A stretch of 30,585 bases of DNA from a virus. Position 1 is the stretch's first letter. Every line of letters begins with the position of its first letter. A model generated the notes under the pieces. It did not search any database, was not told the origin of the DNA, and saw only the letters and a program-made list of their open reading frames with translations. Shown piece by piece: positions 1,378 to 13,197 of the stretch. Location of the stretch: IMG/VR virus record IMGVR_UViG_3300042445_000658, positions 1-30,585 of that record. One strand, 5' to 3'. The position numbers and the translations under genes are program-made.

Positions 1378-2007
1378 ATGAAATGGTTCAAACGACAACA
1401 ACCGCATGTTGAACAATCCCAACAACATGTGACGGGATCCAAAATCCCATTGAAAAAAGTATTCACGGAGGCCGACGGAACCGAGTGGTTCGAATACCAC
1501 AACCCAATGACCATTCCCGCAAAACGCGCAATTTCCGCAGAGGTCGCAACCAGGTTCGTCGAAATGAACATGACCAAAGACCAATTGAGTACAATTATCG
1601 AGGCCATGAAGAAATCCGCCAATGGTGGAAACATTGTCGAAATGTTCCATTTGTTGGCTGAAATGGAATTCCGTTTGGAATTTATTGGCGAAGAACAAAC
1701 CATGATCGAATTAGCCGCGTGTTATTTCGTGATAAAAGGCGAGGACGAAACCGAATTTTCGGACGTTTGGAAACAAATAAAAATTGAACGGATCAAATCC
1801 AATTCGGAGGCGTCCGATTTTTTTATCCAAAGGGCGTTCGTACACACAACCAAATATTCCGAAATGTCCGACAACGATATTCACGAATATTTGAGAGCGA
1901 ACGTCCCCGCAAACGAACGGTTTCGTCAAATTTTGCAACGATTGAGATCGGGCGATATATTGACGAAATCCAATATGTTAACCAAATCATTTGTGAAAAC
2001 CGAGTGA
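1378..2007 (+). CDS. Putative tail assembly chaperone (G-like product)
   Basis: This 209-residue protein is unrecognised by motif. It is mostly helical and charged, and sits between the terminase and the tape measure gene, where long-tailed phages encode the tail assembly chaperone that binds the tape measure protein before tube polymerisation. Supporting that role, codons 148-149 contain a run of seven T at 1818-1824 in the correct phase (T TTT TTT) for -1 slippage, and the -1 frame is open from 1788 to 2117. A slip would replace the last 60 residues with a 97-residue tail, giving about 246 residues. Slippage well before the zero-frame stop is unusual for G/GT genes, and there is no canonical heptamer closer to that stop. 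Function is inferred from position and this arrangement. Confidence 0.6.
   Translation: MKWFKRQQPHVEQSQQHVTGSKIPLKKVFTEADGTEWFEYHNPMTIPAKRAISAEVATRFVEMNMTKDQLSTIIEAMKKSANGGNIVEMFHLLAEMEFRLEFIGEEQTMIELAACYFVIKGEDETEFSDVWKQIKIERIKSNSEASDFFIQRAFVHTTKYSEMSDNDIHEYLRANVPANERFRQILQRLRSGDILTKSNMLTKSFVKTE
1818..1824 (+). other. Candidate -1 ribosomal frameshift site T_TTT_TTT
   Basis: Seven consecutive T bases fall as GAT TTT TTT ATC in the zero frame, the X XXY YYZ arrangement for tandem -1 slippage. The -1 frame has a TGA at 1785-1787 and then no stop until TAA at 2115-2117, so a slip here would be productive. I did not identify a downstream pseudoknot by eye. Confidence 0.45.
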
Positions 2008-2012
2008 CCGAA

Positions 2013-2117
2013 ATGAAAGCGTTGGAATCGTTGTCAATTGACGAATATTATCAAACGATTTCAACATTTTTCAAGATCGTGGACGAACGGAATGAAGCAA
2101 TGGAAAAAAATAAATAA
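2013..2117 (+). CDS. Small ORF or T-like frameshift extension of the tail chaperone
   Basis: An ATG five bases after the preceding stop begins a 34-residue frame (MKALESLSIDEYYQTISTFF then an acidic Lys-ending tail), ending 11 bases before the tape measure start. It could be a free small protein. The same frame is open back to 1788, and the stretch just before the ATG (EIGRYIDEIQYVNQIICENR) also reads like a real amphipathic helix, so it may instead be the C-terminal part of a frameshifted GT-type chaperone. The peptide is helical and acidic, as expected for a segment that binds a tape measure. Confidence 0.5.
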   Translation: MKALESLSIDEYYQTISTFFKIVDERNEAMEKNK

Positions 2118-2128
2118 AACACCAAACC

Positions 2129-5100
2129 ATGGCAGAGGTTAAAAATATATTGTTCAAGTTACAAGCCGACACGTCACAAATGCGTCGCGAATTGGACGCA
2201 ATCAAAACGGGAATAACCAACGTTGGAACCGCAACCAAACAAACGGAATCCGCAGTTTCGGGATTGAAGAAAACATTGGCGGGGGCCGCCGCCGCGTTTG
2301 GTGGTATTTCAGTCGCCGCCGCTGCAATTGATTTCGGTAAGGGAGCAATCCAGGCGGTTGCGGATTATGAAAACGTTCAAATTTCATTGGAAACGTTTTT
2401 GGGTTCCGCGGACAAAGCCAAAAAAACATTCAAGGAATTGGAGGAATTTTCCATTAAGACACCGTTCACCCCCGAACAAGTCAACCAAGCGGGAAAGGCG
2501 TTGTTGGCGTTCGGTGAACCCGTGGATCAATTGACCACGACGTTGGGACGGATTGGTGACGTGTCGTCGGCAACGGGCAAAGATTTTAATGAATTAGCGG
2601 TTATTTATGGAAAGGCCCGTGTTCAAGGAACATTGTTCGCCGAGGATATAAACCAATTGACCGAGGCGGGTGTCCCGATCATTGGGGAATTTGCCAAACA
2701 ATTGGGCGTGTCCGAAAAGGAGGTCAAAAAATTAGGATCCGAAGGAAAAATTTCATTCGCCAATCTCGAAAAGGGATTCCAATCGTTGACGTCGGAGGGT
2801 GGACGGTTTTTCGGTTTGACTGATAAGTTGTCGCAATCAACCACGGGTCGTTTGTCCACATTGGAGGGAAATTTCACCGAGTTAAAACGATCCATTGGCC
2901 AGGGTTTATTGCCCGTTTTCGAATCGTTGGTGGGCGTTGCGTTTGACGTGATTGACGGATTGAGAGCAATCCCCGCATTTGTTGAAGAAAACCGCCGAAC
3001 ATTATTGTTGTTGGCGGGTGTTGTGGCGTTTTATGTTGGCCAAAGAAAAGCCGCATTACAAGCCGAAATACTTTATGAAGCCCGTTTCAAGTTGTTGTTG
3101 ATCCGTGAACAATTGGGATTGGCAATCACCAAAGCCAAGGCGTTTTTCACACGGGCGGCGGCAACGGCCACGAACGTATTGACGGGGGCCACGTCGGCCC
3201 AAGCGGTGGCGGCGCGTGGCGCAACGGCGGCCCAAGCGGCGTTGAATGGGGCAATGAAAGCGAATCCAATCGGATTGGTGATTGGTGCGGTGACTACATT
3301 GTTGGCATTGTTCCCCGATTTCATTTTTGGGGCGGAGGACGCCGCAGCGGCGACACAACAATTGTCGTTGGAACAACAAGCCGTCGCGGATTTTACGGAA
3401 ATCATGAACAAAAAAATCGCCGACGAACAAGTTGAATTGGACGGTTTATTTAACGCGTTACGAAATACCAACGCGGGAACGGCGGAACGTTCGCAGTTGA
3501 TCAATGAAATCAATTCGAAATATGGGACAACGTTGACCAATTTGAAAAACGAAAAGGAATTCGTTGAACAATTGGACATCGCGTATCAAAATTTGATTAC
3601 CCAAATCCGAAACAAAGCGGCCGCAGAGGCAAAAACCCAGGTGATAACCGATTTAATCGCAAAACAAATCCGCGCCCAACAGTTTTTGGAAAATTCATAT
3701 TCGGGTTTGGCTCAATCATTAGGTCAAGGATCTGAAACCGCTAAAAAAATCTATGCGGGTTTATCCGCTGAAAACAAAAAATTGGTTGACGGATTACTTG
3801 CGGGAAATAAAAAGGCAGCCAAGGAATTGAACGAAAACCCATGGGGATTAAGTGGGGCGGAACAACAAGCGGCGGGGGCATTAAATAATTTGGACAACAT
3901 AACAACGTCAATCTCAAACGTTGATAATCCGTTTTTACAGTTATCCCAAGGTGAAACCGACGCGTTGGCAAAGATTGAGGAGGAAACGGGATCCGCGGTT
4001 TCGAGTTACCAATTCTTTTTAGATCAATACGAAGCCACAACCCGCGGAATCGCCGCCGTTGACGCCGCGTATATTGTCGGCGCAAACGCAAAAGGAACGA
4101 CGCGAACATTTACAAGTGAATCGTCCGCCAAAACCGCCGAAAAATTAAAAGAGGCCCAGGACAAATTGAAATTTTCGTTACAACGCGAAATCGATAAACA
4201 AGTCCTCGAATTAAAATTCCAACCCGCATTGTTGGCGGATCCGAAAAACGTCGAACAAGCGGTGGACCAAGCGCAAAAAATAGGGCAAAAACAACGTGAA
4301 ATTTTTGAACAAGAGATCGCCCAAAGGATTGAGGATTCAAAAGCGGAGGGAACATTCACGACCGCGATCGCGTTACAATTTGGCCAATTAAGAAAAAACG
4401 GATTGGAAATTTTAGCCGCAGAAACCGAAAACGCAATCACCAAGATTAAAGAGGACGCGGAAAAAAAGAGGTTGGCGACATTGGATCAAATCGCCGCCGT
4501 GGAATTGGAACGCCAATTGACGTTGGTGGAACAAAACACTCAAACATTGGAGGGGCAAAGGTCCAAATTGATTAAAGATTTGGCCGACGCCCGTGGAACC
4601 GAGGAACAAAATCGAATCCGTCAACAGTTGAATGATAATTTGAAATTGATTCAAGATTCATTGACCAACGAACAAGGCGTAAGAATTAAAGCCATTGAAG
4701 CGGATCGGGACGCGGAATTGAAAAATACTGAATTGACATTGGAGGAACGAACGTTGATTGAAAAACAAGCGGATTTGGAAATCTTAAAAACCAAAAACGA
4801 TTTTCACGATCGGTCAATCAAATTATTGGAGGACGAAACCGACAAAACAAAAGAGGAAACGGAAAAACGCAAACAAGCGATCACCCAGGGAATCGAGGAC
4901 GTTTTGAAGGCGACATTGGATTTGGCCAACGCGGTGATTGACGCACAAATTCGCCAAACCGACGCGGCCATTTCAGCACAACAAAAGCGTGTGGACGCCG
5001 CCGCAACCATTGCAGAAAAGGGAAACGCCGAGTTGTTACAAATCGAAGAAACCCGTTTACAAAAGTTGAACGAACAAAAGGCGAAATTCGTCCGCGCACA

Positions 5101-5599
5101 ACAAGGATTGGCCGCCATTGAGTTGGTTGCCAATTCAGCCGTGGCAATTTCGAAAGCCGCCGCCGAGGGTGGGGCCGCCGCACCGTTCACCATTGCCGCG
5201 ACATTGATCGCATTGGCCGCGGGATTGGTTGCCGCAAGGGCCCAAGCCAGGGCCGCCGCGGGATCGTTTGCCGAGGGGGGTTACACGGGCGACGGTGGGA
5301 AATATGAAGCGGCGGGGGTTGTTCACCGTGGGGAATTTGTCATGACCAAAGAAAAAACGCGCCAATGGCGTCCATTATTGGAGGCAATTCACGCGGGTCG
5401 TGATCCAATGTTGGCCAAGGGATTGAATGATCGTGTTATTGCGATAAACAATAAATCCATGGATTCAAAATTGGAACGAATTGAAATGGCAATCCGTCAA
5501 CAAAAGGGTTTGACATTATCGATTGACGAACGCGGGATCAACGGAATCGTTTCGAAATTGCAGTATAAAGAACAACGAATTCGAAACAAAGCCAAATGA
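2129..5599 (+). CDS. Tail tape measure protein
   Basis: At 1156 residues, this is the longest gene in the window. It runs through the tail tube, sets tail length and takes part in DNA ejection. The N-terminal 270 residues match the TP901/lambda-like tape measure core: NILFKLQADTSQMRREL, an Ala/Gly-rich hydrophobic stretch near 50-75, then a helical domain with FEDINQL-like (FAEDINQLTEAGVP) sequence. Hydrophobic segments occur near 290-305 and 380-400. A long charged helical region rich in Gln, Lys and Glu spans about 660-930, followed by a second Ala-rich segment near 1010-1060. The C-terminus has the Gly/Tyr signature AEGGYTGDGGKYEAAGVVHR. Start context is ACCAAACCATGG without a Shine-Dalgarno. 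Its stop overlaps the next start (ATGA). Confidence 0.93.
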   Translation: MAEVKNILFKLQADTSQMRRELDAIKTGITNVGTATKQTESAVSGLKKTLAGAAAAFGGISVAAAAIDFGKGAIQAVADYENVQISLETFLGSADKAKKTFKELEEFSIKTPFTPEQVNQAGKALLAFGEPVDQLTTTLGRIGDVSSATGKDFNELAVIYGKARVQGTLFAEDINQLTEAGVPIIGEFAKQLGVSEKEVKKLGSEGKISFANLEKGFQSLTSEGGRFFGLTDKLSQSTTGRLSTLEGNFTELKRSIGQGLLPVFESLVGVAFDVIDGLRAIPAFVEENRRTLLLLAGVVAFYVGQRKAALQAEILYEARFKLLLIREQLGLAITKAKAFFTRAAATATNVLTGATSAQAVAARGATAAQAALNGAMKANPIGLVIGAVTTLLALFPDFIFGAEDAAAATQQLSLEQQAVADFTEIMNKKIADEQVELDGLFNALRNTNAGTAERSQLINEINSKYGTTLTNLKNEKEFVEQLDIAYQNLITQIRNKAAAEAKTQVITDLIAKQIRAQQFLENSYSGLAQSLGQGSETAKKIYAGLSAENKKLVDGLLAGNKKAAKELNENPWGLSGAEQQAAGALNNLDNITTSISNVDNPFLQLSQGETDALAKIEEETGSAVSSYQFFLDQYEATTRGIAAVDAAYIVGANAKGTTRTFTSESSAKTAEKLKEAQDKLKFSLQREIDKQVLELKFQPALLADPKNVEQAVDQAQKIGQKQREIFEQEIAQRIEDSKAEGTFTTAIALQFGQLRKNGLEILAAETENAITKIKEDAEKKRLATLDQIAAVELERQLTLVEQNTQTLEGQRSKLIKDLADARGTEEQNRIRQQLNDNLKLIQDSLTNEQGVRIKAIEADRDAELKNTELTLEERTLIEKQADLEILKTKNDFHDRSIKLLEDETDKTKEETEKRKQAITQGIEDVLKATLDLANAVIDAQIRQTDAAISAQQKRVDAAATIAEKGNAELLQIEETRLQKLNEQKAKFVRAQQGLAAIELVANSAVAISKAAAEGGAAAPFTIAATLIALAAGLVAARAQARAAAGSFAEGGYTGDGGKYEAAGVVHRGEFVMTKEKTRQWRPLLEAIHAGRDPMLAKGLNDRVIAINNKSMDSKLERIEMAIRQQKGLTLSIDERGINGIVSKLQYKEQRIRNKAK

Positions 5600-10222: not shown

Positions 10223-11272
10223 ATGGCCGAATTGTTTGATTCATATATAAACCCCAATAACCCGTCCGAGGTTTATTGTGATTTGACGGACGAATTTGAT
10301 TGTTCCGATCCAAACACCCGCTTGTTGTGCGGAACAATTCAAATATTTTGCGGGTCAAATACGTTTTGTTCGGACATGATTGTCAACAACGGGTTGATTT
10401 TGTGCGATTGCACCGAATCATGGAACTGTAATTTGTGCGGCAACGATTCCGCGTTTTGGATCCCATTTCAAGTTGGCGACACATACACATTCCAATTTCA
10501 ACAAATTTTTAGACCGAATGGCGGTTGGTTTACAGTTGACACGTCGTTTGTTGGTTCGGCAAGTTTTCAAATAAAAACATGTTGTGACGATATAGCGTTT
10601 CCCATTCCCGACGAATTGTTCAATCAATTTGTTGTGAATCAATTTGTCGGTGAATTCCAAACAACCCAGGTCGGAGGAATTATCACAACGACACCAATCC
10701 AACAAATCGAATTTGATTTGTACGCAATCACCGAGTATTTAATCGCCCAAGGTTGGGACACATGTTTTTATTTTGAATTTTGTTTCGGAGGTGATCGGGA
10801 AACCAAACCACAATGTTTTTGTTCGGAACCGTTCAAATTGGAGGTTTGCAGCGACAAAAAACAATCGGTGTTGATTGAATCCGATTATCCGTCAACGGAT
10901 TGTTTCGGCCTATATTACGGGAACAATTGGTCCGACGTTTTTGGCGGAATTGCGTTCAATTATTCAAATCAAATTCGGATCCCATGTTCATTTGAACAAA
11001 CCAATTTTAACATTTCCAAATCGATCATCGAAACGTCGCGCAAAACGACGGGTTCGGAAATATGCGAGAATTGGCTAATGAATTCGTTCGCATTGCCGCA
11101 GAGGTTCACAAAAATATTGGCCACCATTGTCGCGGGGACAAACATAACAATCGACGGTGTTGATTTCAACATTGACGGCGAAATCACAAAAAATAATGAA
11201 ATTGGAACCCGTTGGTGGGTTTCGTTAACTTTTGAACATTGCGAATGTTCTAAATCCCTTACATGTTTATGA
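10223..11272 (+). CDS. Cys-rich tail-module protein, unrecognised
   Basis: This 349-residue protein has no family I recognise. It is beta-rich, acidic and Cys-rich: the first 90 residues contain about ten Cys (for example DCTESWNCNLCG), and CCDD recurs further on, as in the preceding tail protein. Start context is TTGAAACCATGG. It shares style (Cys pairs, Trp, Asn/Phe-rich strands) with its two upstream neighbours and is probably a tail tip or accessory virion protein. Its stop overlaps the portal start. Confidence 0.7.
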   Translation: MAELFDSYINPNNPSEVYCDLTDEFDCSDPNTRLLCGTIQIFCGSNTFCSDMIVNNGLILCDCTESWNCNLCGNDSAFWIPFQVGDTYTFQFQQIFRPNGGWFTVDTSFVGSASFQIKTCCDDIAFPIPDELFNQFVVNQFVGEFQTTQVGGIITTTPIQQIEFDLYAITEYLIAQGWDTCFYFEFCFGGDRETKPQCFCSEPFKLEVCSDKKQSVLIESDYPSTDCFGLYYGNNWSDVFGGIAFNYSNQIRIPCSFEQTNFNISKSIIETSRKTTGSEICENWLMNSFALPQRFTKILATIVAGTNITIDGVDFNIDGEITKNNEIGTRWWVSLTFEHCECSKSLTCL

Positions 11273-13197
11273 TTGAAATCGAGCAAATCACCGCGTTATT
11301 GGCGGACGAAAAACACCGACCAAAGAAATACGAAGATTGGAACGACGTTCGTCGAACAATGTTTGTTCACACCCGTGGCAAAAACCCCGAAAACATATTG
11401 ACGGCGCGTCGTCCGAATGAGGATCCCGACGTTCAAAAATATCGTTTGTCAATTTACGAACCAATCACCAAGGGTTCAATGAATCGCGCGATTGATAAGT
11501 TGTTTCGCATTTTCCAAAACGCAAATTTTTCAATCCAGGTGTCGGACGAATTGAACACGTATTTGTCGGAACACAAATTCGACGGTCAATTCTTTTATTC
11601 ATACATTCAAAAGTTCGTTGTTCGACGTATGATTGAAGATCCGAACGGTTATTTGGTTTGGATTCCCGTGGGTCCTGGATTAACCGATCCAACAATTAAA
11701 GTTGACGTTGAACCGATTTTAATCATGTCCAACGACATTAAAGTTTTGAACCACAATTTAATCACATGGAGGTCAAACGACGAATATTCCATGATTCGCG
11801 AAAACGGAAAAATGGTTGAACATGGCCTGGTTTATTATACATTGACCGACACCGCATTTTTTCGCCATGAACAATTTGGAAACGCCATTGACAAAAAATT
11901 CAACACGGTGATCGTTTACGAACATAACATTGGCCAATGTCCCGCCGTTATTTTGGGTGGGGATTTGACCGACGACAATTTTTTCGATTCATATTTTTCC
12001 GCGTTTGTTCCATTCGCAAATGAAGCGATCCGCCAATATTCCGATTGGACGGCGGTCATGACAACGTCGGCGTTTCCTTATCGTGAGGAGGTTGCCGAAA
12101 CATGTGACGCGAAGGGTTGCCGCGACGGTGTCGTTTACAATTCCGAACATGAAGAACACGAAACATGTTCCAAATGTAAAGGATCGGGACGAATCATTTC
12201 ACGTTCACCATTTGGGGTTTTTCTTCGAGAAAAGGGGAACGCCGCATTGGGAACGGACACGGGTTCAAGTGAACCAATGATCCGATTCATTTCACCGCCC
12301 GTTGACATTATCAAATATTCGGGCGAAGCGTGGGAAACGTTATTAAGAAAAGCCGAGGAATCGTTGCATTTGAACACAATCGACGAAGCGCAAAGCGGAA
12401 CGGCCAAACAAATCGACCGCGAAGATTCATTTTCGCAGTTGACCAAGATTTCAAACAATTTATTCGACGAAATCATTTTCAAATCGTTGGTATTTATTGA
12501 GCAATACCGAAACGTTGTCAACCCAATGGATCCGATCATTGTCAAACCCATTTCGTTTTCCATGAAAACCGAGGACGATTTGATTGAGGAATTGAATAAG
12601 TTGACCGACAAAAACGCCCCGATTGCTTTTTTGGTTGAATCAACCAAAGATTTGGCGCGGAAACGTTTTTCGGGAAACAAGACGGTTTCGAGGTTGGTTG
12701 AAATATTGGTTTCATACGACCCAATTTATCATTTGAACACCAAGGACAAACAAATGTTGTTGGCGTCGGGAACGATACGAAAAGAGGATTTATTGAAATC
12801 GTTGTTTGCTTACAAAACATTGACCGCCATGGTCGCAGACAATGGAACCGAGTTTTTGGAACAACCGTTGTCGGTGATCTTTGCCGAGTTGGACGCCAAA
12901 TTGGCCCCAATACTTTCGACCTACATTCCAAAAACCGTGATTGATATAAATTCGGATTCCGCAGACACGGGAACCGTTGACACCGAATTGGCCCGTCAAC
13001 GCGCCGAGGCCCAAGCGAATCTAAAAGGAACCGTTGGGGGTGTTCAAGGTATATTGTCAATTCAACAATCCGTGTCCCAGGGCGTGACCAAACGCGACGC
13101 GGCAATTTCGTTATTGGAAACCATTTACGGGTTTGATTCCGAAACGGCGAATCGATTGTTGGGTGATCCAATTGAAATTCAACCGCCATTGGCATGA
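11269..13197 (+). CDS. Portal protein with a zinc-knuckle-like insert
   Basis: The dodecameric portal forms the DNA channel of the capsid and docks the terminase and the neck. I chose ATG 11269 because it gives an ATGA overlap with the preceding stop; ATG 11263 in frame would add two residues (644 in total). Support for portal: length, position before a MuF gene and scaffold, and a helical C-terminal half. The middle contains C-x4-C (CDAKGC, Cys 281 and 286 in the longer form) and C-x2-C (CSKCKGSGR, Cys 302 and 305), resembling a DnaJ-type zinc finger. The last 60 residues are rich in Ala, Gln and Arg. Identity rests on synteny and general shape, as portals diverge strongly. Confidence 0.8.
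   Translation: MIEIEQITALLADEKHRPKKYEDWNDVRRTMFVHTRGKNPENILTARRPNEDPDVQKYRLSIYEPITKGSMNRAIDKLFRIFQNANFSIQVSDELNTYLSEHKFDGQFFYSYIQKFVVRRMIEDPNGYLVWIPVGPGLTDPTIKVDVEPILIMSNDIKVLNHNLITWRSNDEYSMIRENGKMVEHGLVYYTLTDTAFFRHEQFGNAIDKKFNTVIVYEHNIGQCPAVILGGDLTDDNFFDSYFSAFVPFANEAIRQYSDWTAVMTTSAFPYREEVAETCDAKGCRDGVVYNSEHEEHETCSKCKGSGRIISRSPFGVFLREKGNAALGTDTGSSEPMIRFISPPVDIIKYSGEAWETLLRKAEESLHLNTIDEAQSGTAKQIDREDSFSQLTKISNNLFDEIIFKSLVFIEQYRNVVNPMDPIIVKPISFSMKTEDDLIEELNKLTDKNAPIAFLVESTKDLARKRFSGNKTVSRLVEILVSYDPIYHLNTKDKQMLLASGTIRKEDLLKSLFAYKTLTAMVADNGTEFLEQPLSVIFAELDAKLAPILSTYIPKTVIDINSDSADTGTVDTELARQRAEAQANLKGTVGGVQGILSIQQSVSQGVTKRDAAISLLETIYGFDSETANRLLGDPIEIQPPLA

Follow-up and report, generated by a model that had tools for sequence, protein, structure and literature searches.

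A probable programmed -1 ribosomal frameshift upstream of the tape measure gene in a divergent phage family

Introduction

In phage lambda and its long-tailed counterparts, the gene that directly precedes the tape measure gene specifies two proteins with a common N-terminus, one short and one extended. The extended protein arises by a -1 slip on a heptamer of the form X_XXY_YYZ; in lambda, where the two products are termed 'gpG' and 'gpGT', this heptamer is G_GGA_AAG. Slipping occurs near the 3' end of the lambda G gene; the G part of the protein binds the tape measure protein, and the T part binds the tube protein (PMC5009743). Frameshifting of the G/GT kind is widely conserved across the long-tailed phages (PMC5009743, citing Xu et al. 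2004).

Here, we describe a gene of an uncultivated tailed phage, from a virus record of 30,585 bases, the whole of which was analyzed and is referred to below as 'the window'. Like the lambda gene, it lies immediately 5' of a tape measure gene, carries an in-phase heptamer, and is predicted to specify a short product and an extended product that begin alike. Unlike lambda, a terminase gene lies directly 5' of it, the heptamer is T_TTT_TTT, and the slip point comes 60 codons before the frame-0 stop; sequence homology to gpG or gpGT is not detectable. We consider it highly likely that this one gene gives rise to two proteins by programmed -1 ribosomal frameshifting. Judged from comparative sequence, the frameshift is probably real, and belongs to a known kind in a divergent family. 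It stands out for its early site, for the length of the stretch that is read in two frames, and for the exchange, among relatives, of a downstream stem for a longer run.

Recognition of such genes has practical consequences. The longer protein, of 246 residues, is missed by ordinary gene calling, and a spurious gene of 34 residues might be called. The case also brings into the range of G/GT frameshifting a family of phages with a frame-0 protein that matches nothing in the isolate phage records searched.

Layout of the gene and its surroundings

Open reading frame analysis places the frame-0 gene, of 209 codons, at 1378–2007. The -1 frame contains a TGA at 1785–1787, is open thereafter from 1788 to 2114, and closes with a TAA at 2115–2117, just before the tape measure gene. 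Between these points lie seven consecutive T residues in the context GAT TTT TTT ATC, the first T being the last base of the GAT codon, which gives the phase T_TTT_TTT. The principal features are as follows:

1378–2007, + strand: frame-0 gene; G-like product of 209 residues, conserved in 50 representatives at 45–79% identity
1818–1824, + strand: slip site, T_TTT_TTT, its phase kept in each of the 85 distinct relatives
1824–2117, + strand: -1 frame extension; T-like domain of 97 codons and a stop, beginning with TAT at 1824–1826
1825–1831, + strand: spacer of 7 nt between slip site and stem
1825–2004, + strand: two-frame stretch, comprising the 60 frame-0 codons that follow the slip site
1832–1841, + strand: putative stimulatory stem, 5' arm
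1851–1893, + strand: inner hairpin in the loop; a 9-bp helix (1851–1859 with 1885–1893) and a 6-bp helix (1863–1868 with 1876–1881), predicted in the window and less conserved
1897–1906, + strand: putative stimulatory stem, 3' arm
2129–5599, + strand: tape measure gene (context); Pfam TMP_3, E 5.6e-26

A sequence-only reading of this DNA had proposed a candidate programmed -1 frameshift here from the position and phase of the run and the open -1 frame that follows it, all of which we find as it described them. It had put the expected products at 209 and about 246 residues; recomputed, they are 209 residues in frame 0 and, for a slip at the run, 149 + 97 = 246. It had also called the early slip point unusual, and so it is by comparison with lambda: an early slip forces about 60 codons, or about 180 nt, to code in two frames.

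The upstream neighbor, the terminase gene, ends at 1325. Among relatives with room on the contig, a terminase gene occurs 5' of the frameshifted gene in 41 out of 41, and a tape measure gene occurs 3' of it in 38 of 42 loci. In the window, the terminase large subunit gene, the frameshifted gene (57–2117 in all) and the tape measure gene adjoin, and a portal-like gene is found far downstream (11263–13197). This order—terminase, frameshifted gene, tape measure, with the portal-like gene remote—is uncommon. The best matches to the tape measure protein include phages of Bacteroidota (Cellulophaga phage phi39:1, and Riemerella phages), and the host is therefore probably a member of that phylum.

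Relatives and the slip site

Relatives were gathered from IMG/VR by searching with the frame-0 protein, with its alignment, and with an alignment of the -1 extension. About 120 loci were obtained, several of which overlap as parts of a single contig; the loci comprise 85 distinct sequences, with identities down to about 46%. Relatives of the frame-0 protein were found neither in the isolate-phage collection, where a weak match to SbcC was taken as spurious, nor in bacterial genomes (GTDB).

The run is present and in phase in every one of the 85 distinct relatives, and lost in none. Phenylalanine is encoded by TTT in just 53% of the upstream Phe codons (233/438), yet the run is kept in phase everywhere, and in the 50 representatives synonymous variation is zero in both of its TTT codons. 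Within the overlap, the window has no other in-phase heptamer of the X_XXY_YYZ form. Two other elements were considered and set aside. Later slip sites have no in-phase candidate in that overlap, GGGAAAT being confined to some relatives; and a GGAGG shortly 5' of the run, which might resemble a Shine-Dalgarno stimulator, is present in the window's clade and absent from relatives. In E. coli, U_UUU_UUU promotes slipping less strongly than A_AAA_AAG does (PMC5009743).

The stem, and what slips

A 10-bp outer stem, formed by 1832–1841 with 1897–1906 and enclosing a 55-nt loop, begins 7 nt 3' of the run, within the 5–9 nt expected for a structure downstream of a -1 frameshift site. The 85 nt concerned fold with a z-score of -4.4 in the window; the others with a stem that were tested scored between -2.1 and -6.1. 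The outer stem occurs in all of the representatives with a T7 run (29/29). Three of its pairs have changed on both sides, and its covariation score in these 29 exceeds those of all 500 shuffles and of all slid controls. The site matched no known RNA family. Both arms are doubly coding, and for nearly every arm exactly one sequence preserves both proteins. Covariation is thus accompanied by amino-acid changes, since the arms code in two frames with essentially no synonymous freedom. Conservation of the stem is not cleanly separable from conservation of the proteins, and because dual coding fixes the arms, the role of the stem itself is less certain than the frameshift.

Not all members of the family carry a stem. 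Runs of T9–T10 occur in 21 of the 50 representatives (e.g. L034, L067 and L119), and in 19 of these 21 the stem is absent; four T9–T10 representatives that were folded gave z-scores from -1.7 to +1.8. The two remaining members, L055 and L092, carry both a T9–T10 run and the stem. Three or four changes on the tree underlie the association between run and stem, and a tree test of the exchange yielded 2–4 independent contrasts; these either were neutral or pointed the expected way, and their number was too small to reach significance.

Long runs bring to mind transcriptional slippage, in which RNA polymerase adds an extra U within the T run and ordinary translation of the altered message yields the same 246-residue protein. 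The product would be identical to that of the ribosomal route, and the many representatives with long runs and no stem are compatible with it: a run of 9 is long enough for efficient slippage by bacterial RNA polymerase (PMC5009743). The window, however, has a run of T7 only, with the stem on its 3' side. The stem would not yet be transcribed while the polymerase was on the run, and could act only on ribosomes. Ribosomal slippage is therefore the better reading in the window, and we regard the transcriptional route as improbable there. Tentatively, we raise the possibility that one gene family keeps its frameshifted product while the route changes: T7 with a 3' stem (ribosomal) in some lineages, against T9–T10 without a stem in others, where slippage would be transcriptional or by unassisted ribosomes, L055 and L092 being possible intermediates.

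Selection on both frames

Programmed -1 frameshifting predicts two protein products, and the pattern of substitution shows protein-level selection on both frames, with the switch between them located at the run. Mean synonymous variation in frame 0, across the 50 representatives, falls from 0.53 before the run (128 columns) to 0.27 after it (49 columns); by column, the Mann-Whitney p is 3e-11, which is indicative only, the columns being related by descent. Upstream of the run, the most variable positions are the third positions of frame 0. Beyond about +38 codons, they are the second positions of frame 0, which are the third positions of the -1 frame.

Close relatives show the same switch. The window differs from L001 at 11 positions before the run, every one of them silent in frame 0 but not in -1, and at three positions after it, every one silent in -1 but not in frame 0; one of these three creates a frame-0 stop. 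Against L002, upstream changes are mostly silent in frame 0, and again 3/3 downstream changes are synonymous in -1. All five downstream changes among these near-identical phages, the stop-maker included, are synonymous in -1. The latter falls at window position 1988, which is substituted in L001 and L003. In L001, it converts a frame-0 serine codon to a stop and is silent in -1; the L001/L003 stop comes six codons early, making the G product six residues shorter and leaving the -1 protein unaltered.

The downstream frame might instead belong to a separate small gene, translationally coupled to the end of frame 0. The sequence-only reading had offered such a gene, of 34 residues, from the ATG at 2013, and a GTG at 2004 overlaps the frame-0 TGA (GTGA, 2004–2007). 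Methionine occupies the 2013 column in 40 of the 50 representatives. In the other 10 it is replaced by Val or Ile, however, and L088 has no ATG, GTG or TTG at all before this point. Nor does the -1 frame of the window contain any of these codons between the run and 2004, and protein-level conservation in -1 starts well upstream of any start codon. The distance from the frame-0 stop to the end of the -1 frame, moreover, spans about 31 to 78 codons, so the coupling arrangement is not conserved. This alternative is very unlikely. That the -1 frame is open by chance and untranslated, which a short overlap and biased codon use might allow, we consider negligible: an open overlap has a probability of 0.002 in the window when the frame-0 protein and the codon usage of the family are taken as given (0.001–0.071 across the 50 representatives), yet the frame is open in all complete relatives but one, and the substitutions 3' of the run are synonymous in it.

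Programmed frameshifting accords with the persistence of the extension. Of the 82 relatives with complete ends, 81 have a -1 extension that is open for 95–127 codons, and an early stop after the run occurs in just one of them, L121. Both frames close early in this exception, which probably reflects either a sequencing error or a disrupted gene. In one contig (L059/L117), a frame-0 stop lies 5' of the run, but the run and the -1 extension are retained.

Proposed mechanism and identity of the products

We infer that the ribosome, rather than RNA polymerase, slips, and that the stem stimulates it. Most ribosomes would stay in frame 0 and produce the 209-residue, G-like protein. A minority would be paused by the stem 7 nt 3' of the run, and would slip on T_TTT_TTT into the -1 frame to produce the 246-residue, GT-like protein. 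The last 97 residues of the latter are predicted to form a distinct, mostly helical domain. On the model of lambda gpG/gpGT, the two proteins may function as chaperones, binding the tape measure protein and recruiting the tail tube protein.

The sequence-only reading had named the gene as a tail assembly chaperone. Its position 5' of the tape measure gene and its architecture—two products with a common N-terminus by way of a frameshift, as comparative sequence indicates—speak for this identity, which would rest on these rather than on homology; a significant match in sequence or structure did not emerge. Neither domain significantly matched anything in Pfam, PHROG or PDB. In BFVD, several tail assembly chaperones are among the named matches, all with E above 0.1 and none significant. 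For the G product, a model of modest confidence (pLDDT 69) is largely helical; that of the extension is helical (pLDDT 77).

Comparison with other systems

Cellulophaga phage phi39:1 (L126, KC821626) presents a similar arrangement at 3103–3829. Two small genes, gp19 and gp20, lie just 5' of its tape measure gene; gp19 ends in a homopolymer run (A8), and the gp20 frame is open from this run. What is annotated as two genes may be a G/GT pair expressed by frameshifting. The pair differs from the window's gene in its frame relation, -2/+1, and in having its run at the extreme end of the gene; the likeness is one of arrangement alone, and does not imply kinship with the window's family.

The variation within the family has its closest parallel in dnaX. 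Homologous dnaX genes yield two products either from a short, structured slip site, by ribosomal frameshifting, as in E. coli, or from a longer homopolymer run, by transcriptional slippage on a run of 9, as in Thermus thermophilus (PMC5009743). The T9 group differs from the latter in that it is known from a sequence correlation that involves three or four tree changes. The T7-plus-stem and T9-without-stem groups parallel the two kinds of dnaX gene and, as homologous genes themselves, provide a natural comparison of stem-assisted with long-run slip sites.
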